A stretch of DNA of 64,000 nucleotides from Actinomycetota bacterium (GTDB taxonomy: Bacteria > Actinomycetota > CADDZG01 > JAHWKV01 > JAOPZY01): contig DASTWV010000009.1 of NCBI GenBank assembly GCA_035765775.1, positions 62,001 to 126,000 on the forward strand, in the 5' to 3' direction. Position numbers and translations under genes: made by a program. The notes under the pieces were generated by a model that had not been told where the DNA came from, made no database searches, and saw only the letters and a program-made list of their open reading frames with translations. Positions 13,263-60,050 of this stretch are shown piece after piece. Within the stretch, counting starts at the first letter, position 1. The number at the start of each line of letters is the position of its first letter.

Positions 13263-13777
13263 GCAGCGTGCGCCGGCTGGCGGCCGGGACCGCCTTCCTC
13301 ACCTGGATCTTCTGCTACTCGCTCCTGCACGACGCCGAGCAGTTCTACTCCCACAAGCAGGTGACCAAGGGGCTGCCCGGCTGGCTGGTGGTGGTGCTGG
13401 GCCTGTCGCTGTTCATCACCATCGCCACGGCGGTCAGTGCCCTGATCAAGCTGCCGCTGTGGCCCTGGCTGGCGATGGCGGGCGGGCTGATCGTCGTCGG
13501 CGCCACCCTGGCGACGCACTGGGCCGCCCTGCACAGCGCCGCCACCGCCCTGCGGGCGGCCGGATCGCCGCATCCGGCGGAGGGATTCGGCGCGGCGGTG
13601 AGGGAGTCACTCAAAGCAGGGGTGCTGCCGGTGTTCTTCTCCACGGCGGCGCCCGTGGTCCTGGTCGCCACCGGCCTCATGGGCTGGCGCTGGGGCCCCC
13701 GCCACCTCTTCGCCGTCGAACCCGGAACCGGGCCCGGAACCGGGCCTGGAACCGAGCCGGGAGCTGCCGGTGCCTGA
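13259..13777 (+). CDS. Unassigned four-helix membrane protein inserted between nuoF and nuoG
   Basis: A 172-residue membrane protein not part of the normal 14 Nuo subunits. It overlaps nuoF (ATGA) and nuoG (8 bases), so it is translated with the dehydrogenase module. I see four likely helices: TAFLTWIFCYSLLHD, a second at LVVVLGLSLFITIATAVSA, a third at LAMAGGLIVVGATLAT, and a fourth near residues 126-148 (FFSTAAPVVLVATGLM). Between helices lies a His/Ser loop (THWAALHSAATALR). The C-terminus is a Gly-Thr-Gly-Pro repeat. I know no family for it. It could be an assembly factor or a lineage-specific accessory subunit (inference). Confidence 0.8.
   Translation: MSSVRRLAAGTAFLTWIFCYSLLHDAEQFYSHKQVTKGLPGWLVVVLGLSLFITIATAVSALIKLPLWPWLAMAGGLIVVGATLATHWAALHSAATALRAAGSPHPAEGFGAAVRESLKAGVLPVFFSTAAPVVLVATGLMGWRWGPRHLFAVEPGTGPGTGPGTEPGAAGA
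13721..13756 (+). repeat. Three-copy 12-bp tandem repeat in membrane gene tail
   Basis: Two exact copies of CCCGGAACCGGG (13721-13732 and 13733-13744) and one imperfect copy (13745-13756). They encode Gly-Thr-Gly-Pro repeats at the C-terminus of the extra nuo-operon membrane protein. The repeat immediately precedes the nuoG start. Confidence 0.88.
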
Positions 13778-16463
13778 TCCCGTGACCATCACCCTCAACG
13801 GCACCGAGGTGGTTGCCGATCCGGGCCGCATGCTCATCGACGTCGCCGAGGGCCTCGGCATCTTCGTCCCCCGGTTCTGTTACCACCCGGGGATGGCCTC
13901 GGTGGCCGCCTGCCGCATGTGCCTGGTGGAGGTCGAGGGCCAGCGCAAGCTGCTCCCGGCCTGCGCCACCCCGGTCACCAACGGCATGGTGGTGCATACG
14001 GACTCCAAGCCGGCGGTCGAGGCGCAGAAGTCGGTCCTGGAACTGCTGCTCATCAACCACCCGCTGGACTGCCCGATCTGCGACCGGGGCGGCGAGTGCC
14101 CGCTGCAGGACCAGGCCCTCGGCTTCGGCCCCGGGGTCAGCCGCTACCGGGAGCCCAAGCGCCATTTCAAGAAGGCCCTGCCGCTCTCCGACCTCGTCAC
14201 CCTCGACCGGGAGCGCTGCGTGCTGTGCTGGCGCTGCGTGCGCTTCTGCCGGGAGGTGTCGGGCGACAAGGAGATCGAGCTCATGGACCGGGGGTCGGTC
14301 TCGCAGATCAACCGGGGGGCGGCCGAGCCGTTCGACTCCTACTTCTCGGGCAACACCATCCAGATCTGCCCGGTGGGGGCGCTGACCGCCACCCCGTACC
14401 GCTTCGTGTCCCGGCCCTGGGACCTGCTGGCCACGCCCACCGTGTGCTCGTTCTGCGCCGTGGGCTGCCCGTTGTCGATCGAGCGCCGGGGCAACGAGGT
14501 GCTGCGCGCCCAGGCCCTCCCCAACGAGGCGGTCAACCGGTACTGGAACTGCGACAAGGGCAGGTACGGGCACCGCTACGCCTCGCACCAGGACCGCCTG
14601 ACCAGCCCGTTGCTGCGCCAGAGCGTCACCGCGCCGGACGGCACCACGCAGGACACCTTCGAGCCGGTCACCTGGTCGGACGCGCTCGACGCGGTCACCG
14701 AGGCGCTCGCCCAGACCGAGGCGGTCTTCGGGCCCGGCTCGGTGGGGTTCATCGGCGGCTCGCACGCCACCAACGAGGACCTCTACGCCGCCTCGGTGCT
14801 GTTCCGGGACGCCGTGGGCACCGCCAACCTGGACTTCCGCACCTTCGACGCCGCCTTCGAGTACGGCAACTTCGGCCCGGGCGGCATCGTCGGTTCCACC
14901 GCCAAGATCGAGGACCTGGACCACGCCTCGGCGGTGCTCTGGTTCGGCCCCGACCCCAAGGAGGAGCTGCCCGTGCTCTTCCTGCGCCTGCGCCAGGCGG
15001 CGATGGCGGGGGCCAAAATCTTCGTGGCACATCCCCGGCGGATCAGCCTGTGCGCCTTCGGCACCCACCTTGCCTACACCCCGGGCAAGGAGGCGGAGCT
15101 GCTGGCGGCGCTGCAGGGCGACGAGGCCGGCTGCGGGGTGCCCGCCGAGACCCTCGCCACTGCCCGGAGCGCGCTGGCGGGGGAGGGGGTGGTGCTGTGC
15201 GCCGGGCAGCAGTTCCCCGGCCGGCGCTGCCCCGAGGCCACCGAGCGCCTGGGACTGTGGGCCGCGGCGGTACACCGGGAGGGGCGCGGAGGGCTGTTGC
15301 TGTGCGTGCCCAACGCCAACTCGCAGGGGGCGCTCGACCTCGGGGTCTACCCGGGTCTGGCCCGCGGGCAGGTGCGCGCAGGGTCGGGGCTGGGCACCAT
15401 CGACATCCTGCGGGCCACCGCCGAGGGCCGCATCAAGTTCCTGTGGGTGATGGGCGCCGACCTCACCCGGGACGTGCCCGACGCCGCCCTGGTGGACCGG
15501 GCCCTCCGGTCGGGGGCCTACATCGTGGTCTCCGAGCTGTTCCCCACCGCCACCGCCCTGGCCGCCGATGTCGTCCTCGCCGCCGCCTCGATGGCGGAGA
15601 AGGAGGGGACGATGACCAACCTCGAGCGCCGCATCCAGAAGGTCAACCCGGTGGTCGGCTCCCCCGGGGGTGCCCGGGCGGACTGGAACATCTTCCTGGA
15701 GGTCGCCACCCGCCTGGGGCACCACCCTCCCGAGACCGCGGAGCCGGAGCGCGAGGCCCGACACGGGAGCTGGTTCACCGCCAAGGGGGTCTCCGAGGAG
15801 ATCGCCCGCACGGTCCCCACCCACGCCGGCCTGGACTGGGATGTCCTGGGCGACCCGTGGGCCCCAGTATCCGGTCCCGCCGACATGCCGCCCGAACTCT
15901 GGCACGCCGCCGGCGAGAGCGGGCCACTGCCCCGCAACCAGCTGGCCCCCAGCCAGGAGGCCGCCCTCCCGGGGCGGGAGCCGATCCTGCCCGGCCGGCG
16001 CATGACCACCTCCTGGCCGCTGGCCTGGGAGCTGCGGGCCGTGGACGCCACCAAGCACCAGGGCTGGGTCTGGCCGGCGGTCGCCGGCGAGGCCGGGGTC
16101 GCCCCGGCACAGCCGGCCATCGTCGGCTCGCTGCCGGCGGCGCCACCTGCCGGGAGCCTCATGCTGCTGGCAGGCCGGGCGATCTATGACGGCGGGGCGA
16201 TGGTCACCCGCGCCCCGGACCTCACCTCGGTCACACCGCCGGCCTTCGTCGAGCTGCACCCCGACGAGGCCGCCGCCCGGGGCCTGGCCGAGGGCCGGGT
16301 GGTCACGGTGCGCTCGGCCCGCGGCTCGCTGTCCGCCCCGCTGCGCTGCTCGGCCGACACGCCCCAGGGCGCCGTCTTCGTGCCCTATGACCAGCCCGGC
16401 TTCTCGGCCAACACGCTGATGGATGCCGGTGAGGCCGCCACCTATGTCGAGGTGGGCGCATGA
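13770..16463 (+). CDS. nuoG: NADH-quinone oxidoreductase subunit G
   Basis: An 897-residue iron-sulfur subunit, long but within the family range. The N-terminus is a [2Fe-2S] ferredoxin (VPRFCYHPGM, ACRMCLVEVEG), then the N4/N5 region HPLDCPICDRGGECPLQDQ and ERCVLCWRCVRFCREV, then a CSFCAVGCPLSIERRGNE motif with a later NRYWNCDKG Cys that fits the extra N7 cluster found in some bacteria. The rest is the molybdopterin-oxidoreductase-like domain without an expected cofactor role. The GTG at 13770 starts within the upstream membrane gene. A C-terminal aspartate-decarboxylase-like domain ends with FVPYDQPGFSANTL. Confidence 0.95.
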   Translation: MPDPVTITLNGTEVVADPGRMLIDVAEGLGIFVPRFCYHPGMASVAACRMCLVEVEGQRKLLPACATPVTNGMVVHTDSKPAVEAQKSVLELLLINHPLDCPICDRGGECPLQDQALGFGPGVSRYREPKRHFKKALPLSDLVTLDRERCVLCWRCVRFCREVSGDKEIELMDRGSVSQINRGAAEPFDSYFSGNTIQICPVGALTATPYRFVSRPWDLLATPTVCSFCAVGCPLSIERRGNEVLRAQALPNEAVNRYWNCDKGRYGHRYASHQDRLTSPLLRQSVTAPDGTTQDTFEPVTWSDALDAVTEALAQTEAVFGPGSVGFIGGSHATNEDLYAASVLFRDAVGTANLDFRTFDAAFEYGNFGPGGIVGSTAKIEDLDHASAVLWFGPDPKEELPVLFLRLRQAAMAGAKIFVAHPRRISLCAFGTHLAYTPGKEAELLAALQGDEAGCGVPAETLATARSALAGEGVVLCAGQQFPGRRCPEATERLGLWAAAVHREGRGGLLLCVPNANSQGALDLGVYPGLARGQVRAGSGLGTIDILRATAEGRIKFLWVMGADLTRDVPDAALVDRALRSGAYIVVSELFPTATALAADVVLAAASMAEKEGTMTNLERRIQKVNPVVGSPGGARADWNIFLEVATRLGHHPPETAEPEREARHGSWFTAKGVSEEIARTVPTHAGLDWDVLGDPWAPVSGPADMPPELWHAAGESGPLPRNQLAPSQEAALPGREPILPGRRMTTSWPLAWELRAVDATKHQGWVWPAVAGEAGVAPAQPAIVGSLPAAPPAGSLMLLAGRAIYDGGAMVTRAPDLTSVTPPAFVELHPDEAAARGLAEGRVVTVRSARGSLSAPLRCSADTPQGAVFVPYDQPGFSANTLMDAGEAATYVEVGA

Positions 16464-33037: not shown

Positions 33038-34444
33038 ATGGATGCACCGCAACAGTTCTCCCAGCAGCCCCCGCCGGGCGGCGGCCGGCCACCGCTGGTG
33101 CGCAGCCGAACCGACCGCAAGCTTGCCGGGGTCGCCGGCGGGCTTGCCACCCACTTCGGCGTCGAGCCGCTCTGGATCCGCCTCGCCTTCGTCGCCTTGG
33201 TGATCCCCGGTGGCTTCGGCATCCTGCTGTACGTGGTGCTGTGGGCCTGCCTGCCGGACGAGTCCGGCCAGCGCCCGATGGCCGAGGGTCTGCTGGAGCG
33301 ACTGAAGCGAGCCCCGTCCTGGGTTCCGGTGGTGCTGGTGGTGGGGGCGGTGCTCTTCTTTTTCGGCACCCCCTGGTGGGGCGCTCACCCCGTCACCATC
33401 TTCTGGGCGCTGGCACTCATCGCCGCCGGCGTCTGGCTCTACCACAACGACGCCTCCCGATCCGTCCTCGCACCCCGCGCGGCGACCGCCACAGGACCAC
33501 TCCCGCCCTCCCCGGCGAGTGCCCCGGCTTCGCCGCCGGTCACCCCGGTCACCCCGTCCGCCCCGGTCAGCCCGGTCTACGCCGCTGCCTATCCGCCGCA
33601 ATACGCCCCGGGCGCGGTCGCACCGACGGTCCCCTACTGGGCGCCGCCACGGTCCTACGCCCCGGCGGCGGCACCGCTCCCCGCCCCCAAGCGGGAGCCG
33701 TCGCCCCTTGGCCGCATCACGATCGCGGTGGCGCTGGTGGCCCTCGGCGTCATGGGCGCCTTCCAGCGTCTCGGCGCCTGGCACCCTCCGCTCCGGGACT
33801 ATCCCGGCCTTGCGCTCCTCGTGGTGGGTGCCGGCTTGCTCGTCGGCATGCTCTGGGGCCGGGCCCGGCTCCTGATTCTGGTGGGCCTGCTCATCGTCCC
33901 GTTCGGCCTGGTGGCCAACCTGACCGACATGGTGGCGCACGACCGGGCGGGCAACTACATCTACACCCCGTTCACCCCCACCAACGTGCGGGCGGAGTAC
34001 CACCTGGGAGCCGGCCATCTGCGGGTGGATCTGACCCGGTTCGCCTGGACCCCGGGCATGACGGTCCGGACCCGGGCCGTCATGGGCGCCGGCAACCTGG
34101 AAGTTGTGGTCCCGGACGGTGTCCGGGTGCGCTTCTCCGGCCACGTGGGCGGCGGCGTCATCCAGTTCCTCGGCCGCCAGGAAGCCGGGCTGGACACCGA
34201 CTACTCCTCCCAGGCCGGTCCGGCCGGCGGCCCGCTCCTCATCCTGAAGGCGAACGAGTCGTTCGGGAGGATCCTGGTCGAGCGTCCCTCGGTTGCTGCC
34301 AAGGAGTCTCCGGTCCCGGTTCCGAAGGTGCCGAGCCCAGCGGTGCCCGCCCCGCCAGGCCCAGCTGCCCAGCCAGCCCCGGCTGCCCCGGCGGTTCCGG
34401 CTGCCCCGGCGGTTCCGGCTGCGGCCGTGGCTCCAGCTGCGTAA
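33038..34444 (+). CDS. PspC-domain membrane protein with LiaF-like C-terminal domain
   Basis: A 468-residue protein. A PspC domain lies at residues about 20-80 (RSRTDRKLAGVAGGLATHFG, ILLYVVLWACLPDES), then a membrane pair, a Pro/Ala-rich linker of 80 residues, further helices near residues 230-300, and a beta-rich C-terminal segment (VRAEYHLGAGHLRVDLTRF, VRTRAVMGAGNLEVVVPDG) that matches the cell-wall-stress LiaF/DUF2154 type. The last 50 residues are Pro-Ala-Val repeats. It faces the PspC kinase gene across 261 bases and is probably its regulated target or antagonist. The start has a GGGAGGGAGGG site (33031 region). Confidence 0.88.
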   Translation: MDAPQQFSQQPPPGGGRPPLVRSRTDRKLAGVAGGLATHFGVEPLWIRLAFVALVIPGGFGILLYVVLWACLPDESGQRPMAEGLLERLKRAPSWVPVVLVVGAVLFFFGTPWWGAHPVTIFWALALIAAGVWLYHNDASRSVLAPRAATATGPLPPSPASAPASPPVTPVTPSAPVSPVYAAAYPPQYAPGAVAPTVPYWAPPRSYAPAAAPLPAPKREPSPLGRITIAVALVALGVMGAFQRLGAWHPPLRDYPGLALLVVGAGLLVGMLWGRARLLILVGLLIVPFGLVANLTDMVAHDRAGNYIYTPFTPTNVRAEYHLGAGHLRVDLTRFAWTPGMTVRTRAVMGAGNLEVVVPDGVRVRFSGHVGGGVIQFLGRQEAGLDTDYSSQAGPAGGPLLILKANESFGRILVERPSVAAKESPVPVPKVPSPAVPAPPGPAAQPAPAAPAVPAAPAVPAAAVAPAA

Positions 34445-34494
34445 GGAGGCGGTAGGCGACAGCCTGTAGACCCGACACAGAGGGAGGCACGACC

Positions 34495-34752
34495 ATGAAG
34501 CGGCACCCGTTCGATCTGTTCTCCGGCTTTTTCGGCGCCCTGTTCGCTGTGCTGGGCATCCTGCTGCTCTCCGGGCCGCACGGCTTGCAACCCGGCCACC
34601 TTGCGGTGGTGGGGCCGGCGGTCGTGATTGCCGCCGGCGTCGCCCTGCTGGCCTCCGTGGTGCGGGGTTTCCGGTCCCGGCCCGGGACGCCCGACGCCTA
34701 TGCCGAGGAGCCCGCTGACCCGCTGGTGGAGGAGGTCCCGCCGGAGTCCTAG
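34495..34752 (+). CDS. Small two-helix membrane protein
   Basis: An 85-residue protein with two hydrophobic helices: FFGALFAVLGILLLSG and LAVVGPAVVIAAGVALLASVV, then a short acidic tail. I recognise no family. A GGGAGG ribosome binding site precedes the ATG. It follows the PspC/LiaF-like gene by 50 bases on the same strand and may belong to the same envelope-stress unit. Confidence 0.75.
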   Translation: MKRHPFDLFSGFFGALFAVLGILLLSGPHGLQPGHLAVVGPAVVIAAGVALLASVVRGFRSRPGTPDAYAEEPADPLVEEVPPES

Positions 34753-34809
34753 GAATTCACCGCCAGTTCACACCGCGACCACAGTCGCAGCCGGTACTCT
34801 TGATAGCCC

Positions 34810-49005: not shown

Positions 49006-49449
49006 GTGGACGAGGTAGAGCAGGAGACAGGGGGCGCCCGGCTGCGGGTCATCCACGCGGCGGACCGGGTGCCGGACGCCGCCAGCGGCGCCATGCGCCG
49101 GGAGGCGGCGATCTCCCACAGCCTGGTGGGGGCCGGCCGCCTCTGGATGGGCTACGTGGAGCTGGCCCCCGGGGCGGTGTCGGCCGTCCACCACCACGGC
49201 GAGTCCGAGAGCGCCATCTACGTGATCTCGGGGTCGGCCCGGTTCTGGTCGGGCGACGCCCTGGAGGGTGCCTACGACGCCCGGGCGGGCGACTTCGTCT
49301 GGGTGCCGCCCCACCACGTCCACGTCGAGGCCAACCGGAGCACCATCGACCCGGTGTGCATGGTGGTCGCCCGCTCCACCCAGGAGGCCATCGTGGTGAA
49401 CCTGGCTACCCCGGACGGCTGGCTGCCGGAGTTCGGGACGCTCTTTTAG
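49006..49449 (+). CDS. Cupin-domain protein
   Basis: A 147-residue protein with a single cupin barrel. Metal-ligand motifs are VHHHGESESAIYVISGSARFW (motif 1, core HHHGESES with Glu) and WVPPHHVHVEAN (motif 2). Such proteins bind a divalent metal and act as isomerases, dioxygenases or sensors; the substrate is unknown. The GTG at 49006 is preferred because GGAGG lies 6 bases upstream; a longer frame from 48901 has no ribosome binding site. It overlaps the convergent binding-protein gene by 4 bases. Confidence 0.83.
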   Translation: MDEVEQETGGARLRVIHAADRVPDAASGAMRREAAISHSLVGAGRLWMGYVELAPGAVSAVHHHGESESAIYVISGSARFWSGDALEGAYDARAGDFVWVPPHHVHVEANRSTIDPVCMVVARSTQEAIVVNLATPDGWLPEFGTLF

Positions 49450-51131
49450 GACTTGGCGAAGCCAATCGCCTGGTAGTCCGGGTTGGCGAAGCCAAAGGCC
49501 CCGAAGTTGGCCAGGCTGGATTTCTGCACCACGATCTGGGGCTGCTCGTACAGCGGCAGGGAGTGCACCTCGCCCCAGATCATGATGTCGATCCGGTTGC
49601 CCAGCGTGATGGCCCGGGTGGGGTCCAGCTCGGCGAGAGCCTGGGCGATGAGCTGGTCCAGGGCGGGCGAGCCGACCCGGGCGTAGTTCTGCCCGATGGC
49701 CTCGGCCCCGTTGCTGCCCCGGAGCGGGTTCTGGTAGACGGACTGGCTGGACACGATGGGACTGGTCGATCCCTGCTGCGAGTACAGCGTCAGGTCGAAG
49801 TCCCCCGCCGCGACATAGGACGGGAAAAACGTCTGGGCCGGGACGCCCTGTACCTGCACCTTGATGCCCACGCCCTCGAGATCCTTCTTGATAAGACCCG
49901 CCTCCTGCGCGGCGGCGGCGTTGTCCGACGGGATCACCATCCGCAGTTGCATGGCCTGGCCGTTCTTGGTGCGCACGCCCTTGACCAGTTTGAAGCCGGC
50001 CTGGTCCAGCAGGGTCCCGGCTCTCCTGGCGTCGGACGTCCCGAACATGCCGGCGTTGTCCTGGTAGCCCCGCTCATCGGCCATGAAGATGTGGTTGTTC
50101 AGGGTGGCGTCGGGCACCCCGAGCGGGCCGAGGATCGCCTTGGCCAGGGCCTGCCGGTCGATCGCCAGCCCCACCGCCTGGCGGACCTTGATGTCCTGCA
50201 GGTTGGGGCTCTCAGCGTTGAGGGTGAGCACCCGGAACTGCGGGCCGCCCGCCGTCCGGATGGTGGTGCCCTTGATGTCCCGGGCAGAGGTGAGCGGGCC
50301 CTTGAGCGCCGGGAGCTGGACGAAGTCGATCGTCCCCCTACGCAGGGCGGCCAGCTCCTTGGATGCATCGGTGCCCACCGAGTGGTAGACGATCGAGTTC
50401 AGCACCGGCTTGGTGCCCCACCAGGCCGGGTTGCGCACGACGGTGGCGGTCTGGACGCTGTGGTCGATGCCCTGCATCACGAAGGGGCCGGCCGAGGTCA
50501 CCGTCCCGGTCACCCAGCCGGCGTTGAACGTGGCCGATGTGGCGTTCAGGGCCGCCGGGTACAGGGGCGTGAACAACCCCTGCCAGGCGCTGAACGGGCT
50601 GGTGAAGCTCACCAGGACCTCCCCGGCACCCGTGCCCTGGGTGACCGAGGAGATGTCCTCGTAGCCCGCCGTCGAGGCAGCATTGAAGGTGGGGTCCTTG
50701 CCGTTCAGGGCTTTCCACTGGGCGATGAAGTCGGCGGCGGTGATGGGCGTGCCGTCCGACCACTTCGCCTGGGGGTTGATCTCGTAGGTGACGACCTGCG
50801 GGGAGGACGAGGTGACGGAAGCCTTGGTGAGGTAGTCGGTGTCCAGCACCGGCTGGCCGAGGGCGTTGTAGTTGAACAGCGTCGGCATCACCGCATAGAT
50901 GAGTGAGGCCTCGTCGCCCAGCGAGCCCACGTTGCTGTTGAAGTTGTAGTTGTCGGGCAGCTGCGACAGCGGCCAGTTCAGGGTGCCGCCGCTGGCGAGC
51001 TGGCCCGCGGGCATCGGGTTGATGTCGTTCGCCCCGACCTTGAACTGCGAGGTTTTCTGGCAGGCGGTGGCCACGAGCAGGAGGGCCGGCAGGCACGCCA
51101 CCCAGACGCGCCGGGATCGGGAAAAGATCAC
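49446..51131 (-). CDS. Oligopeptide-type ABC transporter substrate-binding lipoprotein
   Basis: A 561-residue lipoprotein of the SBP_bac_5 (DppA/OppA) family. The signal peptide ends at LLLVATAC (residue 24). Family features are GGTLNWPLSQLPDNYN, WSDGTPITAADFIAQWKAL, AGPFVMQGIDH, VRQAVGLAIDRQALAKAIL and LYEQPQIVVQ near the end. It would capture peptides or other small solutes outside the membrane. No permease or ATPase gene of the system is near, so it is an orphan that must use a distant transporter. It is convergent with the cupin gene. Confidence 0.92.
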   Translation of the reverse strand: MIFSRSRRVWVACLPALLLVATACQKTSQFKVGANDINPMPAGQLASGGTLNWPLSQLPDNYNFNSNVGSLGDEASLIYAVMPTLFNYNALGQPVLDTDYLTKASVTSSSPQVVTYEINPQAKWSDGTPITAADFIAQWKALNGKDPTFNAASTAGYEDISSVTQGTGAGEVLVSFTSPFSAWQGLFTPLYPAALNATSATFNAGWVTGTVTSAGPFVMQGIDHSVQTATVVRNPAWWGTKPVLNSIVYHSVGTDASKELAALRRGTIDFVQLPALKGPLTSARDIKGTTIRTAGGPQFRVLTLNAESPNLQDIKVRQAVGLAIDRQALAKAILGPLGVPDATLNNHIFMADERGYQDNAGMFGTSDARRAGTLLDQAGFKLVKGVRTKNGQAMQLRMVIPSDNAAAAQEAGLIKKDLEGVGIKVQVQGVPAQTFFPSYVAAGDFDLTLYSQQGSTSPIVSSQSVYQNPLRGSNGAEAIGQNYARVGSPALDQLIAQALAELDPTRAITLGNRIDIMIWGEVHSLPLYEQPQIVVQKSSLANFGAFGFANPDYQAIGFAKS

Positions 51132-51171
51132 GGACGGGGATCCTACCGGTGTACGCCGGTCAGCAAGCCGG

Positions 51172-51573
51172 TCAGTCCGACACCGGGGCCCGGCGCGGGG
51201 AAAGCCGGGGCGCCACGAAGCCGCTGGCCAGCCCGGCGACGACCCCCAGCCCGCCCAACACCATCAGCTTCGGCTTGTGCTTGCGGGCGCCGGTCACCAT
51301 CAGGGTGTCGCCCGCCGCCCGGATGGCGTGGCCCCCCTGGGGCATCGCCAGGATGGCCTTCCCGGCGGCCGTCGAACGCAGGCGGGAGAGGTCGCGCTGG
51401 AGGACCAGCAGCGACGCCGCCATCGGGACCAGATAGTGCACGGCGAGGCCGGTGATCGTGCGGCCCCGCCAGAGCAGCCAGAGCGAGAGGGCGCCCGCCC
51501 CGGCGTCCACCACCAGCTTGGCGGGGTGGGCCTGGTGCAGCGCCAGGGCGTCGGGGTCCTCGAGGCCTTTCAT
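51172..51573 (-). CDS. Small hypothetical membrane protein
   Basis: A 133-residue protein with two or three weak hydrophobic stretches (VVDAGAGALSLWLLWRG, GLAVHYLVPMAASLLVLQ and LMVLGGLGVVAGLASGFVAP). The N-terminus has LHQAHPAKLVVDAGAG. The family is not recognised. It stands upstream of the binding-protein gene and diverges from a DUF5995 gene; 111 bases between them hold the promoters. Confidence 0.65.
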   Translation of the reverse strand: MKGLEDPDALALHQAHPAKLVVDAGAGALSLWLLWRGRTITGLAVHYLVPMAASLLVLQRDLSRLRSTAAGKAILAMPQGGHAIRAAGDTLMVTGARKHKPKLMVLGGLGVVAGLASGFVAPRLSPRRAPVSD

Positions 51574-52419: not shown

Positions 52420-52605
52420 CCTTCACGAAACCCCCCTTGTTGTCGATAGACGAGGGTGGGCACATACAATGACCTCCGGCTCCGGCGAGCGGAGGGACTC
52501 GGCGCGAGCGGTGTTCACGCGGATCCACAGTGGACGCACAAGTGACCATCAAGCCCGGTCCACGCTGCTCCGGCACGCTGCCCGAAGACCAACCTGGAGG
52601 TTCGT
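52420..52605 (+). promoter_or_regulatory. Leader of the ligase-ComA gene cluster
   Basis: This 186-base gap holds the likely promoter for the acyl-ligase cluster. A TACAAT word (52465-52470) is a good -10 candidate; a matching -35 is unclear (TTGTCG lies 19 bases upstream). The CTGGAGG ribosome binding site precedes the GTG at 52606. Confidence 0.4.
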
Positions 52606-54180
52606 GTGCGCAGTGAGGTTGCCCGGCTTCTCCAGGAGGCCGCCCAGGACCGGGGTGATCGCCCGGCGGTCATCGAAGGGCGCACGGGCGCCACACTGAG
52701 CTGGTCCGCTCTCGGGCAGGCGGCGGAGGCCTGGGCACACCGCCTCGAGGCAGCCGCCCTGCCGCCCGGCACCGCGGTCGGGCTCCTGGCCGAACACCCA
52801 CTCGCCTTCATCCCCGCCTACCTCGGCCTGCTGGCCGCCGGTGCCGTGGTGCTGCCTCTGGACCCCTCCGCCCCCTCGGCGGGGGGCCAGTCCGAGGCCG
52901 CCTCTGCCCTCGCCGAGTTCCAGGTGGCTGTGCTGGTGACCGACACCGAGACCGGCCACGGCGCCGCCTCGGTGGCCGGCATCCCGGCATGGCAGTCCGC
53001 CTGGGGCGCCGCTGCGGCCGCCTTGGGGGACGCCTCCGCCGGGCCCTTGCCCCCGCGCAGCGCCCGCCCGGCCGTCTGGGTGGAGCCGGCGTCGGTGGTG
53101 CTGCGCACATCGGGGACCACCGGGCGCCCCAAGGGGGTGCCGCTGCACGAGGCCCAGCTGCTCCATGGCGCCCGGGCGGTGGCCGGCCACCACGGCTTCC
53201 AGCCCGGCGAGCGGGTCTACAGCTCCCTGCCGCTCTTCCACATCAACGCCCAGGTGACCGGCCTGATGGCAGCGGTGGTGTCCGGCACCACGCTGGTGGT
53301 GGACGGCCGCTTCCACCGCCAGGAGTTCTGGGATGTCCTCGACTCCTGGGAGGTCGGTGTGCTCAACGCCGTCCCGGCCATCCTCGCCCTGCTGGCCGAC
53401 GGCTCCCCGCCGCCCGAGGCGGTCACCCGCCGGATCCGGTTCGCCCGCTCCGCCTCTGCCCCGCTGCCCCTGGCCACGCTCACCGCCTTCGAGGCCCTGA
53501 CCGGCATCGGCGTCCTGGAGACCTACGGCATGACCGAGGCCGCCGGCCAGATCTGCGCCAACCCGCTGTGCGCCGCCGAACGCCGCCCGGGCACGGTCGG
53601 CCGGGGGGTGGGAATCGAGGTTCGGGTGGCCGACGACGTCGGGGCCGGCGCCGCCCCAGAGGTCCCCGGTGGGGTGCAGATCCGCGGCCCCAGCGTGACG
53701 CCCGCCTATGCCATCCCGGATCCCGCCGGGGGTATGGCCAGCCGGCGGCCGGCGGTCGACCGGGAGGGCTGGCTCACCACCGGGGACGTCGGTTCCCTGG
53801 ATGCCGGCGGTTTCCTCACCCTGCTCGGCCGCACCGACGGCGTCATCAACCGGGGCGGCGAGAAGCTCTACCCCCGGGAGGTGGAGGAGGTGCTCCGCCG
53901 CCACGCCGGTGTGGCGGAGGTCGCCGTCGTGGGCGAGCCGGATCCCGTCCTGGGTGAACGGCCGGTGGCCTTCGTCGTCCCCCGGGTGCCCGGGGGCAGC
54001 GACCAGCGCCTGCACGACGAGCTGGTGGCCCTGTGCGCCGGGGCGCTCGGGCGCCACAAGCGCCCCGCCCGCATCCAGGTCACCGAGCGGCTCCCCGCCA
54101 CCCCCACCGGCAAGGTGCGCCGGGACCAGCTCAAAGCCATGGTGGTGGCGGCGGCGGCCGGCGAAGGGACGCTGCCGTGA
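52606..54180 (+). CDS. AMP-binding acyl-CoA synthetase / ligase
   Basis: A 524-residue ANL-family enzyme that adenylates a carboxylic acid and usually forms a CoA thioester. The P-loop LRTSGTTGRPKGVPL is at about residue 166, followed by ETYGMTEAAGQICANP, GWLTTGDVGSLDAGGFL, LGRTDGVINRGGEKLYP and the C-terminal lysine motif PATPTGKVRRDQL. It starts the cluster with acyltransferase-3, ComA and VOC genes and overlaps the acyltransferase start (GTGA). The acid used cannot be told. The N-terminal 160 residues are the usual ANL fold. Confidence 0.92.
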   Translation: MRSEVARLLQEAAQDRGDRPAVIEGRTGATLSWSALGQAAEAWAHRLEAAALPPGTAVGLLAEHPLAFIPAYLGLLAAGAVVLPLDPSAPSAGGQSEAASALAEFQVAVLVTDTETGHGAASVAGIPAWQSAWGAAAAALGDASAGPLPPRSARPAVWVEPASVVLRTSGTTGRPKGVPLHEAQLLHGARAVAGHHGFQPGERVYSSLPLFHINAQVTGLMAAVVSGTTLVVDGRFHRQEFWDVLDSWEVGVLNAVPAILALLADGSPPPEAVTRRIRFARSASAPLPLATLTAFEALTGIGVLETYGMTEAAGQICANPLCAAERRPGTVGRGVGIEVRVADDVGAGAAPEVPGGVQIRGPSVTPAYAIPDPAGGMASRRPAVDREGWLTTGDVGSLDAGGFLTLLGRTDGVINRGGEKLYPREVEEVLRRHAGVAEVAVVGEPDPVLGERPVAFVVPRVPGGSDQRLHDELVALCAGALGRHKRPARIQVTERLPATPTGKVRRDQLKAMVVAAAAGEGTLP

Positions 54181-55430
54181 GCAGCACCATCACCACCCAG
54201 CCGGTCAACGAGCCCGACCCGAGGTCCCGGCCCACCCCGACCGCCCCTGCCAGCCGCACCAGGTCCGGCAGCGCTGCCCCCCGCCACCTCGATGCCGTCG
54301 ACTTTGTCCGCATGTACATGGTGGCTGGGGTCATCGCCATCCATCTCGTGGGCTACACCACCAATCCCACCGACATCCTCGCCGGCGGGGTGGGCGCCAT
54401 CCTGCACCTCAACCGGGAGGTGTTCTTCGTCCTCACCGCCTTCGTCCTCACCTATGGCTACGGCTCGCGGACGGGCTGGTCGGTGTGGAAGTTCTGGAAG
54501 AAGCGCTACCTGCTCATCGGGGTGCCCTACCTGGTGTGGACCGGGATCTACTTCCTCGCCGACGGCAGCGAGCACAAGCCGTGGGTCCAGGTGCTCCACC
54601 GCCTGACCACCGACCTCGCCCAGGGGCTCGCCCGGTACCACCTCTACTTCCTGCTGGTCACCATGCAGATCTACCTGCTCTTCCCGGCCATGCTGTGGCT
54701 GCTGCGCAAGACGAAGGGCCATCACGGCGTCCTTGTGGCGGTCGCCCTGGCCTACCAGTTGGCGTACACGGTCCTGTTCCACTACCGCATGCACCACCCG
54801 GCGGTCATCAACGTGCTTTTTGCCCATGCCGATCCCCTGATCACCAGCTACCCGCTCTACATGATCGGGGGCGGGGTGGCGGCCTTGCATCTCGACGAGC
54901 TGCGCACCTTTGTGCGCACCCGGCCCCGGGCTGTGGGGGCCCTGGTGTCTGCCGGGTTCGGCGTGGCGGTCATCGCCTTCCTCGTGGACGTGTACTGGGT
55001 GGGGCAGAACGCCGCCCAGGCAGGCGAGGTCTTCCAGCCCAGTGTCATCTTCAGCTCGGCCGCCGCCGTCCTCGGGCTCTACACCCTCGGGCTGCGATGG
55101 GCGGACAAGGGAGAGGAGCGCCGCTGGCGCCGGTCGGCGGCCATCGCTGCGGACACGTCGTTCGCGGTCTACCTCGTCCACCCCTTGCTCATCCAGTGGC
55201 TGATCGCCCTGGCAGCCCCGGTGGTGACCCTGGGGGTCGACAACAAGATCCCCAGCGCCGCGGTCCTGCCGGTCGACCTGTTCGTGGTGGTCCCGCTGCT
55301 GTTTATCCTCAGTGCCAGCGCCATGCGGCTGGTCCGCTACACGCCCCTCAGCCTGCCGGTCACCGGGCGGCCCCGGCGGGAACGGGCGTCGGCTGCGGTG
55401 GCCAAGGCACCGGCGGGTGCGGCCGCATGA
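54177..55430 (+). CDS. Acyltransferase-3 family membrane protein
   Basis: A 417-residue OafA/YrhL-type membrane acyltransferase with about ten helices. The segment LDAVDFVRMYMVAGVIAIH (first helix, with R and H typical of the family) is followed by NREVFFVLTAFVLTYGYGS, KKRYLLIGVPYLVWTGIYF and YHLYFLLVTMQIYLLFPA. Such enzymes transfer an acyl group to sugars, glycans or small molecules at the membrane face. Start GTG overlaps the ligase stop, so both are translated together. A 45-residue Ser/Pro N-terminal extension is probably cytosolic. The acyl acceptor is unknown. Confidence 0.88.
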   Translation: MSSTITTQPVNEPDPRSRPTPTAPASRTRSGSAAPRHLDAVDFVRMYMVAGVIAIHLVGYTTNPTDILAGGVGAILHLNREVFFVLTAFVLTYGYGSRTGWSVWKFWKKRYLLIGVPYLVWTGIYFLADGSEHKPWVQVLHRLTTDLAQGLARYHLYFLLVTMQIYLLFPAMLWLLRKTKGHHGVLVAVALAYQLAYTVLFHYRMHHPAVINVLFAHADPLITSYPLYMIGGGVAALHLDELRTFVRTRPRAVGALVSAGFGVAVIAFLVDVYWVGQNAAQAGEVFQPSVIFSSAAAVLGLYTLGLRWADKGEERRWRRSAAIAADTSFAVYLVHPLLIQWLIALAAPVVTLGVDNKIPSAAVLPVDLFVVVPLLFILSASAMRLVRYTPLSLPVTGRPRRERASAAVAKAPAGAAA

Positions 55431-55482
55431 ATCGCCGCCGCCAGCACCCGTGTGTTAGGAAAGACGATTCACGGAGGTGCCG

Positions 55483-56247
55483 ATGATCCCCACAAGCCTG
55501 CGTCTGCCCGACCGTCCCGGCAAGCCCCGCCGCATCGGTCTCACCATGGTGATCGACAATGGGGCGCCGGTCGGGATGCTGCGCGACTACCTGGACAGCG
55601 CCGGCGAGCTGATCGACTTCGTCAAACTGGGGTGGGGCACGTCGCTGGTCAGCCGGAAGCTGCCCGAGAAACTCGCGGCGCTGGCCGCGGCGGGCATCCC
55701 GTGGTTTTTCGGCGGGACGCTCTTCGAAAAGTTCCTCTCCCAGGGCGGCTTCGACGACTTCCGGGCCTTCTGCATCGAGCAGGGCGCCCGCTACGTCGAG
55801 GTGTCCAACGGCACCCTCGACCTGCCCAACGGCGAGAAGGCCCGCTACGTGGACAAGCTGGCTGCCGACTTCGTGGTGATCTCCGAGGTGGGCTTCAAGG
55901 ACGCCGCCCGCTCCGAGGCGATGGAGCTGGAGGACTGGGTCCGGGAGATCAACCGGGACATCGACGCCGGTGCCACCCTCGTGGTCACCGAGGCCCGGGA
56001 GAGCGGGCGCAGCGGCATCTGCCGTTCGGACGGCATGCTGCGCCGCGAGCTGATCGAGGGGATCCTGGACTCCGGGATCGAGCCGCAGTCGCTCCTCTTC
56101 GAGGCGCCTACCAAGGACCTGCAGACCTGGTTCATCAGCCGCCTGGGGCCGAACGTCAACCTGGGCAACATCGCCCTGGGCGACATCATCGCCCTGGAGA
56201 CCCTCCGCCTGGGGCTCCGCTCCGACACTCTGCTGGCCTGGGACTGA
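55483..56247 (+). CDS. Phosphosulfolactate synthase-like protein (ComA family)
   Basis: A 254-residue TIM-barrel enzyme of the ComA family, which adds sulfite to phosphoenolpyruvate giving (2R)-phosphosulfolactate. Family stretches are GLTMVIDNGAPVGMLRDYL, IDFVKLGWGTSLVSRK, FFGGTLFEKFLSQGGFDDF, YVEVSNGTLDLPNGEKARY, VVISEVGFKDAARSEAM and LLFEAPTKDLQTWFISR with NVNLGNIALGDIIALE. The ATG at 55483 has GGAGG 5 bases upstream. In methanogens it feeds coenzyme M, in Bacillus spores sulfolactate. ComB and ComC genes are not seen here. It follows the acyltransferase by 52 bases and precedes the VOC gene by 1 base. Confidence 0.85.
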   Translation: MIPTSLRLPDRPGKPRRIGLTMVIDNGAPVGMLRDYLDSAGELIDFVKLGWGTSLVSRKLPEKLAALAAAGIPWFFGGTLFEKFLSQGGFDDFRAFCIEQGARYVEVSNGTLDLPNGEKARYVDKLAADFVVISEVGFKDAARSEAMELEDWVREINRDIDAGATLVVTEARESGRSGICRSDGMLRRELIEGILDSGIEPQSLLFEAPTKDLQTWFISRLGPNVNLGNIALGDIIALETLRLGLRSDTLLAWD

Positions 56248-56248
56248 C

Positions 56249-56647
56249 ATGCGGACCAGCGACGACTGCTTCCACCTGGCCATCCCGGCCAAGGACTTGG
56301 ACGAGGCCCACGATTTCTACGTCAAGGGCCTGGGCTGCAAGCTAGCCCGGCGCTACGGTGACCGCATCACCCTCGACTTCTTCGGGGACCAGGTGGTCTG
56401 CCACCTGTCGGACCGCATCGAGGAGGACCCGCAGATGTACCCCCGCCACTTCGGGGTGACGTTCCGTCACAAGGACGGTTTCGACGCCCTGGTACGCCTG
56501 GCGACCGTCCGGGGGCTGCCCTTCTTCGCCGAGCCGGCCCGGCGCTTCGAAGGGATGGTCGAGGAACACTGGACGGTCGTGCTCCGGGACCCCTCCAATA
56601 ACCTGATCGAGTTCAAGCACTACGTCGACCCAAGAATGATGTACTAA
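56249..56647 (+). CDS. VOC (glyoxalase/dioxygenase-fold) family protein
   Basis: A 132-residue vicinal-oxygen-chelate protein with the two beta-alpha-beta3 repeats: CFHLAIPAKDLDEAHDFYVKG and HFGVTFRHKDGFDALVRL, ending LRDPSNNLIEFKHY. Metal-ligand candidates are His in FHLAI, His in RHFGV and Glu in NLIEFK. VOC members do isomerase, lyase or dioxygenase chemistry, or only bind. Its start lies two bases after the ComA stop, so the pair is likely functionally linked. The substrate may be a sulfonate or lactate-type metabolite (inference). Confidence 0.87.
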   Translation: MRTSDDCFHLAIPAKDLDEAHDFYVKGLGCKLARRYGDRITLDFFGDQVVCHLSDRIEEDPQMYPRHFGVTFRHKDGFDALVRLATVRGLPFFAEPARRFEGMVEEHWTVVLRDPSNNLIEFKHYVDPRMMY

Positions 56648-56675
56648 GCATGAATGTACTGAGGGTGATGTACGG

Positions 56676-57875
56676 ATGAAGCCCATCCCTCGGGAAGGAT
56701 CCCGGGTGCCGTCCCCGGGCCCGCCGCTCCGGCTCACCCCGCAGGCGTACGCCGTCCGCCCCCGGAGGCGCTATGCCCGCTGGTACCTGTACGCCCCGGT
56801 GGCCCTCGGCCTCATCCTGGCCCTCGCCGTAGTGGAGATGGTGCTCTCCTCGGCGGGGGGGCCTGACGCCTCTTTCGCCGAGAAAGCCCAGACCGCCACC
56901 CGGACCCACGCCTCCACGTCGCACGGCACGTCGGCGCACCCGTCCTCAGGGCGCCCCGCCCACGGGCGGTCGGTCTCGCTCCCCAAGCAGCCCTCGCCCC
57001 AGCCGCCGGCGCCGCCCCCAGCTCCCCCGGCACCCTCCCCGTCGCCGAGCCCCACCGTGGCCCCGTTGGCCTCGGTGACCAACACGGTCTCCGTGGGCAG
57101 CACCCAGCGCAACTACGTCGAGTTCTTCTCGCAGGCCTTGAACGCCAAGGTGCCGGCGCTGGTGGTGCTCATGGGCGGCAACGCCAGCGTGGCCCAGGAG
57201 GAGAGCCGGGACGGCCTGTTCCCCTACGTGTACGCCCAGCAGGCGGTGCTGGTCTACCCGCTGGACTACCGGGAGTCGTGGAACGCGGGCGCATGCTGCG
57301 GGGCGGCGGAGGCGCAGGGGGTCGATGACCTGGGCTTCATCCAGCAGGTCGTCCACTCGCTGCAGGGGCAGCCCAACATCGGGCCCATCTACCTCATCGG
57401 CTACAGCAACGGCGGCAAGATGGCCTACGACGTGGCCTGCAAGGACCCCGGCCTCGTCAGCAGCTTCGCCGTGATCGCCGCCGTCCCCGTCGTCGGCTGC
57501 CCCAACGGCGCCCCGATCTCCCTGCTGGACATCGACGGCACCAGGGACCCGCTCACCGCCTTCGACGAGTCCAGCCCCCAGCACAGTGCGAACGGGTTCC
57601 GGGAGGCCTCGACCACCGCCGAGGTCCACGCCTGGGCTAAACGCAACGGGTGCACCGGCCAGCCCGGGTCCACCACCATCGGCACGGTGGTCCTCACCAC
57701 CTGGGCCACCTGCGCCAACGGCACCGCCGTGGAGCTGGCCGGGTACCAGGGCGGGATGCACGAGTGGCCCGGGCCCGTGGGGGCGTCGCCCTCGGCGGCA
57801 TCACTGATGTGGAATTTCTTCACCCAGCCGCACGCCGGCCCGTCCGCCGCCCCGGGGAGCCCGGGCCTGGCGTAG
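56676..57875 (+). CDS. Membrane-anchored PHB-depolymerase/esterase-like hydrolase
   Basis: A 399-residue protein. An N-terminal anchor (WYLYAPVALGLILALAVVEM, residues about 31-50) is followed by a Ser/Pro linker of about 90 residues and an esterase domain of the LpqC/PHB-depolymerase type. The nucleophile elbow reads IYLIGYSNGGKMAYDVAC, the oxyanion-region segment DYRESWNAGACCGAA is typical, and DIDGTRDPLT and GGMHEWP supply Asp and His. It therefore looks catalytically complete and faces outside. It follows the VOC gene by 28 bases and may belong to the cluster. Three ATGTAC words sit in that gap. Confidence 0.85.
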   Translation: MKPIPREGSRVPSPGPPLRLTPQAYAVRPRRRYARWYLYAPVALGLILALAVVEMVLSSAGGPDASFAEKAQTATRTHASTSHGTSAHPSSGRPAHGRSVSLPKQPSPQPPAPPPAPPAPSPSPSPTVAPLASVTNTVSVGSTQRNYVEFFSQALNAKVPALVVLMGGNASVAQEESRDGLFPYVYAQQAVLVYPLDYRESWNAGACCGAAEAQGVDDLGFIQQVVHSLQGQPNIGPIYLIGYSNGGKMAYDVACKDPGLVSSFAVIAAVPVVGCPNGAPISLLDIDGTRDPLTAFDESSPQHSANGFREASTTAEVHAWAKRNGCTGQPGSTTIGTVVLTTWATCANGTAVELAGYQGGMHEWPGPVGASPSAASLMWNFFTQPHAGPSAAPGSPGLA

Positions 57876-58007: not shown

Positions 58008-58715
58008 CTAATGGATGGGCAGGTCCACCCCGCCGGGCACCAGGCCCGCCACGACCTGCGCCGTCAGTTCGTCCAGGCACCCGATGGTCACCGCCGCGCC
58101 CGCGAGCGCGTCGGGGGCCGGTGGGTACTCCGGGCGGGGCACGGCGACCACCCGGCAGCCGGCGGCGGCGGCCGAGCGCAACCCGTTGGTCGAATCCTCG
58201 ATGGCCACCGCCCCGGCCGGGTCCACACCCAGGCGCTCGGCGGCCAGCAGGTAGACGTCAGGCGCCGGTTTCCCCCGGGCGACCTCGTCGCTGGAGGTCA
58301 CGGCGCGGAACTCGCTCGCCAGGCCGGAGAGCTCCAGCACGCGCACGATCACCGGCAGGGGCGACGAGCTGGCCACCGCCAGCAGCCCGAACGCCGCCCG
58401 CATGCGGCGCACCGCGTCCCCGGCTCCGGCCAGCAGGGGGAGGTGGCCGGCGAAGGCCTCGATGATGCGGGCGCTGACGTCCCGGGCGATGGCCTCGGGG
58501 GCATCGGGCACGCCCCGCTCAGCGTGGAGGAACGCTGACCACTCCCGCGTGCTCATGCCCATCATCGCCTCCTGGGTGCCGGGCGGCCAGCGCCCGCCCC
58601 GCTCCCGGGCATAGGTCTCCCGGACGCGCTCCCAGACCGGTTCAGAGTCGATGAGCACGCCGTCCATGTCGAAAATGACAGCAAGGGGGAGGGCCGCATG
58701 GCCATTGGGGCGCAC
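58008..58715 (-). CDS. HAD-superfamily phosphatase (beta-phosphoglucomutase-like)
   Basis: A 235-residue soluble hydrolase. HAD motifs are present: VIFDMDGVLIDSEPVWE (motif I with both Asp), VASSSPLPVI (motif II Ser), GKPAPDVYLLAAERLG (motif III Lys) and IEDSTNGLRSAAAAG (motif IV). A four-helix cap lies between residues 30 and 90, as in phosphoglycolate phosphatase or beta-phosphoglucomutase relatives; the substrate is unassigned. The GTG at 58715 starts it; longer frames run into the divergent gene's region. It faces the Grx-TrxR fusion across a 123-base gap. Confidence 0.88.
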   Translation of the reverse strand: MRPNGHAALPLAVIFDMDGVLIDSEPVWERVRETYARERGGRWPPGTQEAMMGMSTREWSAFLHAERGVPDAPEAIARDVSARIIEAFAGHLPLLAGAGDAVRRMRAAFGLLAVASSSPLPVIVRVLELSGLASEFRAVTSSDEVARGKPAPDVYLLAAERLGVDPAGAVAIEDSTNGLRSAAAAGCRVVAVPRPEYPPAPDALAGAAVTIGCLDELTAQVVAGLVPGGVDLPIH

Positions 58716-58768
58716 GGCCCGGCAGGCTAGCGGGCCCGCCGCCGGCCCGGGCCTGCCCACCCCCGGAA

Positions 58769-58789
58769 AATCCGCGGAATGGACGGATT
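58769..58789. promoter_or_regulatory. AATCCG-n9-CGGATT inverted repeat in divergent region
   Basis: Perfect 6-bp arms AATCCG (58769-58774) and CGGATT (58784-58789) with a 9-base centre, 21 bases in all, lie in the gap between the HAD phosphatase and Grx-TrxR genes. A TGTAAA word follows at 58794-58799. It is a candidate operator for either promoter. Confidence 0.35.
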
Positions 58790-58838
58790 CTGGTGTAAAA
58801 GTCTTCGCCAGGAAGCGGCTGGCACGGGAGGTGGAGAG

Positions 58839-60050
58839 ATGGCTGAGATCACGATCTATGGCGCCGCCTGGTGCCCCGAGTGCCGCCGCACCAAGCGACT
58901 GCTGGGCGAGGTGCGGGTGGATTTCGACTGGGTTGACCTGGACGTCGACCCGTCGGCCGAGGGCTACGTCCGGCGCCATGACTCGGGCAAGCTCACCCTC
59001 CCGCTGGTGGTGCTGGAGGGGGGCAAGGCCCTCGTGGCGCCCTCGGGGGCCGAGTTGCTGGAGGCTCTGGGGGTCGAACAGCCCCGCGACCGGCGGTTCT
59101 TCGACGTCATCGTCATCGGGGCCGGCCCCGCCGGGTTGACCGCCGCGCTGGGGGCGGTTCGGGAGGGCATGCACTGCCTGGTGATCGAGCAGGGCGAGCC
59201 GGGCGGGCAGGCCTCCGCCACCCCGCGTGTCCACGGGATCCCGGGCTTCGCCGAGGGTGCCTCCGGGGCCGAGGTCAAGGAGGGCCTGCTGGGCCAGGCC
59301 CGGCGCTACGGGATCCGGATCCTCGCCGGCCAGGGGCTGAAGGAACTCTCGCGCATCGACGGCTACCTCCTGGCGGTCACCGGTGACGGCGAGGAGTTCG
59401 TGTCCCGCTCGGCGGTCATCGCCACCGGGGTCAGCTACGCCGAGCTGGGCTTCCCGGGCGAGGACCAGCTGCGGGGGGCCGGGCTCCACTCGTGCGCCAG
59501 CTGCGAGGGCCCCTTCTACCGCAAGGCGGAGGAGCTGCTGGTGGTGGGCGGCGGCGACCTCGCCGGTGAGGAGGCCCTCTTCCTGACCCAGTTCGCCGGC
59601 AAGGTGCGGGTGCTGGCCGAGTCCGCCGAGTTCAAGACCTCCCCCGTGATGCTGGAGCGGCTGCGCCGCAACCCGAAGATCGAGCTGTACCCCTCGACCG
59701 AGGTCGCCGAGCTCAGTATCGGCTCCGATGGCAAGCTCACCGCCGCCGTGGTCCGGGACCGCACCACGGGCTACACGTTCTCGTTTAACCCCACGGCGGT
59801 GTTCGCCTACCCGGCGATGACCCCCAACACCGACGCCCTGGTGGGGGCGGTGGACCTGGACCCGGTGGGATTCGTCATGACCGACGGCATGCTGGAGACC
59901 TCGATGCCGGGTGTGTTCGCCGCCGGCGACGTCCGGGCGGGCAGCACCAAGCAGCTCGGCTCAGCCATCGGCGAGGGCATGACCGCCGTGGTCATGGTGC
60001 GCTACTTCCTCGAGCAGCTGGGCGACCTCGCCCCGCGCGCCCCGGCCTGA
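58839..60050 (+). CDS. Glutaredoxin-thioredoxin reductase fusion protein
   Basis: A 403-residue flavoprotein. Residues 1-80 are a glutaredoxin/NrdH-type domain with the dithiol site AAWCPECRRTK (C12, C15). Then a thioredoxin-reductase body: FAD site VIVIGAGPAGLTAALG near residue 93, redox-active HSCASCEGPFYRK near residues 219-222 (usual family form CATCDG), NADPH site VVGGGDLAGEEALF near 237, and FAAGDVRAGSTKQLGSAIG at the end. It would pass NADPH electrons through FAD to the fused glutaredoxin. The ATG at 58839 has GGAGG upstream. It is likely an antioxidant or peroxidase donor. Confidence 0.92.
   Translation: MAEITIYGAAWCPECRRTKRLLGEVRVDFDWVDLDVDPSAEGYVRRHDSGKLTLPLVVLEGGKALVAPSGAELLEALGVEQPRDRRFFDVIVIGAGPAGLTAALGAVREGMHCLVIEQGEPGGQASATPRVHGIPGFAEGASGAEVKEGLLGQARRYGIRILAGQGLKELSRIDGYLLAVTGDGEEFVSRSAVIATGVSYAELGFPGEDQLRGAGLHSCASCEGPFYRKAEELLVVGGGDLAGEEALFLTQFAGKVRVLAESAEFKTSPVMLERLRRNPKIELYPSTEVAELSIGSDGKLTAAVVRDRTTGYTFSFNPTAVFAYPAMTPNTDALVGAVDLDPVGFVMTDGMLETSMPGVFAAGDVRAGSTKQLGSAIGEGMTAVVMVRYFLEQLGDLAPRAPA

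Follow-up and report, generated by a model that had tools for sequence, protein, structure and literature searches.

A ComA-linked gene cassette conserved across bacterial phyla, with a possible role in sulfonated surface modification

A ComA-type phosphosulfolactate synthase lies in the window (the whole 64,000-nucleotide stretch of Actinomycetota DNA analyzed here) among genes for an acyl-CoA ligase, a membrane acyltransferase, a small metalloprotein and an esterase, and the locus raises the question whether these genes serve one pathway and what that pathway would make. The five genes are consecutive and all on the forward strand (Table 1). Their positions and families had been proposed in a first-pass annotation of the sequence and proved correct; Pfam agreed for the first four. 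The genes are joined by one 4-base overlap or short gaps. The GTGA at 54177-54180 contains the ANL stop and the AT3 GTG start, ComA starts at ATG 55483, 52 bases past AT3 and preceded by GGAGG, the VOC gene starts 1 base past the ComA stop, and the esterase starts 28 bases past VOC. The coordinates thus reproduced the spacing noted in that annotation (a ligase/AT3 overlap, then 52 and 1 bases). From the spacing, the conserved order and the gene fusions we infer that the five genes are probably co-transcribed; the promoter-like site at 52443-52470 is a single weak consensus match. Two neighboring loci were also recorded. On the minus strand, 49446-51573 encodes a solute-binding protein of the peptide/nickel type together with a 133-aa protein; only in the sister genus are these two also found next to the cassette. 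At 58779-60050, Pfam recognizes a glutaredoxin domain joined to a thioredoxin-reductase-like flavoprotein.

Table 1. Genes of the cassette in the window.
Feature	Position	Strand	Match or basis
ANL-superfamily acyl-CoA ligase, 524 aa	52606..54180	+	Pfam AMP-binding 7.9e-57, AMP-binding_C 4.4e-22
AT3 membrane acyltransferase, 417 aa, R45-X10-H56	54177..55430	+	PF01757 Acyl_transf_3 1e-25
ComA-type phosphosulfolactate synthase	55483..56247	+	PF02679 3.4e-81
VOC metalloprotein, 132 aa	56249..56647	+	PF00903 Glyoxalase/VOC 3e-12
Membrane-anchored extracytoplasmic alpha/beta-hydrolase esterase	56676..57875	+	NF050058 match below cut-off; predicted structure

The same five-gene order had been suggested as something to look for in relatives, and it was found, together with the two upstream neighbors, in the closest relative available, which belongs to another genus of the family. 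The VOC protein was then used as the query against about 85,000 species genomes, and 80 VOC loci were examined. Its identity to the window copy was about 62-80% across phyla. ComA lay at most 6.5 kb from VOC in 61 of the 80 loci. AT3 was present in 31 of these 61, and all 31 AT3-bearing loci also carried the ANL gene (30 in the tally plus L058 from separate locus inspection). Carriers belonged to the Actinomycetota, Bacillota, Acidobacteriota and Pseudomonadota, with one Melainabacteria bin; some of the non-Actinomycetota placements are single bins and possibly misbinned, and the isolates among the carriers include Alicyclobacillus, Trebonia, Nocardia and Pseudonocardia. The genes occurred in at least five arrangements: ANL-AT3-ComA-VOC in Nocardia, Pseudonocardia and Actinomycetospora, AT3-ANL-ComA-VOC in Alicyclobacillus, Acidimicrobiaceae and an Acidobacteriota bin, ComA-VOC-ANL-AT3 in Trebonia and a Proteobacteria bin, ComA-VOC-AT3-ANL in L073, and with genes on opposite strands in A. 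fastidiosus and Frankia. Two further kinds of gene recur with the set, one for a phosphatase (ComB or a histidine phosphatase) and one for a secreted hydrolase.

In an even sample of genomes of the phylum, VOC was found in 5 of 397 genomes and ComA in 37. All five VOC genomes (three of them from one genus, three genera and two families in total) had ComA directly upstream of VOC and carried ANL and AT3. Every one of 19 VOC genomes from the wider search had ComA, including Sulfobacillus-type genomes in which ComA and VOC are apart. Several Alicyclobacillus loci had ComA-VOC with neither AT3 nor ANL within 10 kb; in the Alicyclobacillus acidocaldarius group (L061-L067, L083) the ComA-VOC pair is on its own, with genes that by eye resemble hopanoid-synthesis genes a few kb away.

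Some loci carry the genes as fusions. ANL and ComA were joined in single open frames in L075, L091 and L092, and the 954-aa frame of L089 contained ANL, ComA and VOC, which makes four loci with fused ANL-ComA. AT3 and ANL shared single frames in L104 and L112, and AT3 was fused to the esterase in a 724-aa frame of L106, the esterase part of which matched no Pfam family. Elsewhere in the fused frames Pfam detected the joined domains. Taken together, the fusions connect all five cassette genes. That the genes recur across phyla, are reordered and are fused to one another supports a single pathway, as the first-pass annotation had suggested.

The ComA of the window scored 272.7 bits against PF02679 (gathering cut-off 25.2) and 222.8 bits against the archaeal equivalog TIGR03849, below its cut-off of 280. 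The core ComA motifs are conserved. Its match to the methanogen enzyme was weaker (about 1e-46) than that to Bacillus subtilis YitD (1u83; 4.9e-77). The VOC-linked ComAs grouped together in an 84-sequence tree (4 label changes compared with 21 in shuffles), with YitD in their midst. Both YitD and archaeal ComA condense PEP with sulfite. The tie between the pathway and ComA-type sulfonate formation, proposed from the start, is well supported by the conservation across phyla, the fusions and the ComB/histidine phosphatase slot. A PAPS-reductase-family protein is present as a possible sulfite source.

A second ComA of the same genome (G000:C55:32710-33420; L002, L028), 62% identical to the cassette ComA, adjoins genes for a solute-binding protein and an ABC transporter and has no ANL, AT3 or VOC beside it. 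That the cassette ComA is a stray paralogue was rejected: ANL and AT3 were absent around the second ComA and at all 15 of the 15 non-VOC ComA loci, where apparent 'ANL' labels are the ComA parts of fused query ORFs. On contig G011:C133, ComA is split into two frames twice, at 13438-14162 and 34053-34777, as an inverted copy, which is likely an assembly artefact or a decayed gene. In a Methyloprofundus bin (L077:1117-12326), ComA lies inside a nonulosonate-type cluster beside flagellin, in the order PIG-L, CMP transferase, ComA, ATP-grasp, ComB, VOC, UDP-GlcNAc 2-epimerase (NeuC-like), NeuB, nucleotidyltransferase, MptE-like and flagellin. This ComA is divergent, with the longest end branch in the tree. 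Its gene neighborhood suggests that the sulfonate module may also feed surface-glycan synthesis, with a sulfonated flagellin sugar as a possible product.

No match to ComB (PF04029) or ComC (PF02615) was found in the whole assembly, which is 95.8% complete. This agrees with the first reading of the locus, which had seen neither gene, and methanogen-type coenzyme M synthesis was rejected on these grounds. Among the ComA-VOC loci, ComB adjoined the pair in six and a histidine phosphatase was close by in 18, so that one or the other was present in 24 of 61, and we infer that the histidine phosphatase substitutes for ComB. No phosphatase was found within the operon of the window. Five histidine phosphatase matches occur in this genome away from the operon; the best of them (L116), also distant, shares 51% identity with the L098 histidine phosphatase encoded upstream of ANL. 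Another candidate phosphatase is a HAD protein on the minus strand at 58011-58793.

The nearest solved structures to the ANL ligase were the oxalate-CoA ligases 5ie0, 6qjz and 8aff (207, 201 and 184 bits, compared with 144-152 for malonyl-CoA synthetase, MenE and FadD13). Its best NCBIfam match was FadD7 (NF004511), at 288 bits and below the equivalog cut-off of 650. The RSxSAPL and PLFH motifs, including R281 and S284, are retained in the cassette ligases; the RSxS motif is common to ANL and the oxalyl-CoA synthetases and is not shared by malonyl-CoA synthetase or MenE. Residues H212, S284 and R281 of the window ANL align with oxalyl-CoA synthetase, and G314 occupies the position of H319, which together with H214 and S289 makes up the essential residues of AAE3. 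With one of these three replaced, the window ANL lacks the full oxalyl-CoA synthetase set. These features point to a small anionic acid as the probable substrate, not to sulfolactate specifically, and the fusion of ANL to ComA suggests that the ligase acts on the ComA product.

In the VOC protein, 50 of 132 columns were invariant among 24 sequences from several phyla. They include H9, H67 and E121, a putative His/His/Glu triad at the metal positions, as in metal-dependent VOC proteins. The only close structure is 3rri from Alicyclobacillus acidocaldarius, with 69% identity. The next characterized folds are FosA, FosB and FosX (TM about 0.70 at no more than about 20% identity), fosfomycin-modifying metalloenzymes that bind a C3 phosphonate, and this fold may give a hint to the VOC substrate. 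As VOC was also found with ComA and ComB at loci without ANL or AT3, it probably acts near (phospho)sulfolactate. At seven Sulfobacillus-type loci (L036, L039, L041, L042, L043, L048, L051), genes for a D-2-hydroxyacid dehydrogenase, an MFS transporter and/or DUF2891 adjoin VOC. These loci have no AT3, and ComA lies elsewhere in the genomes that were checked; their gene content may reflect sulfolactate or sulfopyruvate metabolism.

AT3 proteins take acyl groups from CoA in the cytoplasm and export them (PMC9833829, PMC9558356), and in some cases the group is small and anionic, for example succinyl, and ends up on a glycan (PMC9558356); ExoH and MdoC/OpgC are AT3 succinyltransferases of this kind (PMC9833829, PMC9558356). 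The R-X10-H motif of TMH1 was invariant in 24 cassette AT3s. The RXXR of TMH3 is described as highly conserved in the family, not absolute, and it is not kept in the window: R110 is present and the second Arg is replaced. In L075, L076 and L092 a CMAS-type methyltransferase gene lies upstream of AT3, in L075 and L092 together with DUF1365, hinting at a possible lipid connection. An MFS transporter adjoins AT3/ANL in Alicyclobacillus.

AT3-SGNH enzymes need their hydrolase domain for the final acyl transfer (PMC9833829, PMC9558356). The window has no fused extracytoplasmic SGNH domain and instead has a separate alpha/beta-hydrolase gene. This esterase matched no Pfam family and scored 73.5 bits against NF050058 (extracellular type-1 short-chain PHA depolymerase), below the cut-off of 150. 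A basic N-terminus, one TM-like segment near 34-52, a Pro-rich linker and six Cys confirmed its earlier description as outward-facing, and Ser244-Asp291-His362 form a putative triad. The best structural matches of the predicted model (mean pLDDT 89.6) were acetyl xylan esterase, feruloyl esterase and PHB depolymerase; the fold match to 8daj had a TMq of 0.68. The window-type esterase occupies the hydrolase slot in 15 ComA loci and GDSL hydrolases occupy it in others. That secreted hydrolases of unrelated kinds fill this slot again and again points to a constant extracellular function, which may be transfer or removal.

In the reading that we prefer, the five genes would form one operon that places a sulfonated acyl group on an extramembrane molecule via sulfolactyl-CoA and AT3. 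ComA would convert PEP and sulfite to (R)-phosphosulfolactate, from which a phosphatase acting in trans, encoded elsewhere here and adjacent in many relatives, would release sulfolactate. The putative substrate of the VOC metalloenzyme would be (phospho)sulfolactate or a compound derived closely from it. ANL would activate the sulfolactate carboxylate to sulfolactyl-AMP/CoA, AT3 would accept the cytoplasmic acyl-CoA and pass its acyl part to the outside, where the anchored esterase would either finish the transfer, like the SGNH domain in OatA-type enzymes, or strip the group. The likely end product would be an envelope glycan or lipid bearing a strong-acid sulfonate that is charged even at low pH. 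Gene content, order, conservation, fusions and motifs were observed; the reactions are proposed from the families, and the ANL substrate, the acceptor and the low-pH role are likewise proposals. The small anionic acyl group is proposed by analogy with the oxalyl-CoA-type RSxS ligases and the succinyl-moving AT3 relatives. We hold this reading tentatively, at a little under an even chance. Against it stand the phosphatase missing from the operon and the ComB missing from the assembly, the incomplete RXXR of AT3, the replacement of AAE3 H319 by G314, a VOC step without an explanation, the Sulfobacillus-type VOC beside a 2-hydroxyacid dehydrogenase at loci without AT3, the CMAS/DUF1365 genes of three loci, which suit a lipid product, and the Alicyclobacillus ComA-VOC pairs that lack AT3 and ANL.

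The first-pass annotation had suggested an acylated sulfolactate-type product. Spelled out, this would mean that ANL would activate a fatty acid, AT3 would esterify the 2-hydroxyl of sulfolactate to give a secreted acyl-sulfolactate amphiphile or sulfonolipid, and the esterase would recycle it. Its sulfonate pathway was supported, whereas the transfer of a fatty acyl group onto sulfolactate was not established. The gene set and the fusions are also compatible with a fatty acyl group, FadD7 is the best NCBIfam match of ANL (far as it falls below the cut-off), and the lipid-modification genes beside AT3 in three loci and the MFS transporter in Alicyclobacillus would fit such a product. However, the pocket motif of ANL resembles that of oxalyl-CoA ligases, the ANL-ComA fusion fits a ligase working on the ComA product, and AT3s typically acylate extracytoplasmic glycans (PMC9558356). 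Because of the RSxS ligase, the fusions and the AT3s that export small anionic acyl groups, we consider the fatty-acyl direction a serious competitor but less likely than the preferred reading, and on the whole rather unlikely. We regard as unlikely, too, that VOC turns (phospho)sulfolactate into another C3 sulfonate (an isomer, a sulfoacetate-like or an unsaturated acid) which ANL and AT3 then transfer. Of the partners of ComA, VOC is the most conserved and the most regularly present, also where ANL and AT3 are missing, and its putative H-H-E metal site and FosA-like fold would suit a small C3 anion; on the other side, any such VOC reaction is conjectural, and ANL-ComA fusions without a fused VOC exist.

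It is very improbable that ComA uses a nucleophile other than sulfite, so that the envelope would receive a phospho- or other lactate-type acyl group and no sulfonate. The TIGR03849 score (222.8 against 280) and the absence of ComB from the genome would allow it, but the core motifs are kept, YitD falls within the clade, and ComB, an enzyme named for phosphosulfolactate, lies beside ComA-VOC in six loci. Chance adjacency of unrelated metabolic genes had nothing in its favor except the lack of a described pathway; it was refuted because the genes recur, variously ordered, in several phyla and because fusions join all five, and its probability is negligible.

Among known systems, the cassette ComA resembles YitD and methanogen ComA in family and motifs, with YitD in the same clade and ComB alongside in some relatives. 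Unlike in methanogens, ComB and ComC are absent from the genome, and ComA is tied to VOC, ANL and AT3 instead of comB-comC-comDE. With the AT3-SGNH systems OatA and OafB the cassette shares an AT3 with R-X10-H and an extracytoplasmic hydrolase partner, whereas the hydrolase is a separate alpha/beta-hydrolase gene and the cassette has its own genes for acyl-donor synthesis and activation. The oxalyl-CoA synthetases AAE3 and Pcs60 are the nearest solved structures to ANL and share the PLFH and RSxS motifs; they differ in that Gly/Ser replaces H319 and the genomic context is not oxalate degradation. The VOC homologue 3rri is known from structural genomics without an assigned function, and at such low identity to FosA, FosB and FosX, Fos activity is not implied. 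Capnine-type sulfonolipid synthesis is alike in idea only, as a bacterial sulfonated envelope product. The capnine route starts from cysteate with an aminoacyl synthase-type enzyme, and the cassette has no such step. A search of open-licence PMC papers for sulfolactyl groups, acyl sulfolactates and acidophile sulfonolipids returned nothing relevant. As far as that literature shows, the cassette is undescribed, in agreement with the earlier remark that no such operon was known, and it is a real cross-phylum pathway.

Many carriers come from acid habitats according to their record titles (Alicyclobacillus, Sulfobacillus, Acidiferrimicrobium, peat and mine bins). A sulfonate retains its charge at low pH, and a surface role in acid is therefore plausible. 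A ComA homologue of C. glutamicum, which may belong to another subfamily, was up 3.2-fold at pH 6 (PMC2627906).

Outside spore-formers and alkene degraders, bacterial ComA genes are mostly annotated as coenzyme M genes while the rest of that route is absent. The cassette offers a concrete anabolic destination for the product of such ComAs, and it gives a context to a highly conserved VOC family for which structural genomics had been the only source. That sulfolactylation is a new cross-phylum envelope modification, leading from PEP and sulfite through a sulfonated acyl donor and AT3 to a surface polymer, is possible but doubtful. If true, it would give the surface a charge that persists untitrated at low pH, and it would rank among the main anabolic roles of bacterial ComA. 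The cassette predicts a sulfonate-bearing surface group, and several of its carriers are cultured.
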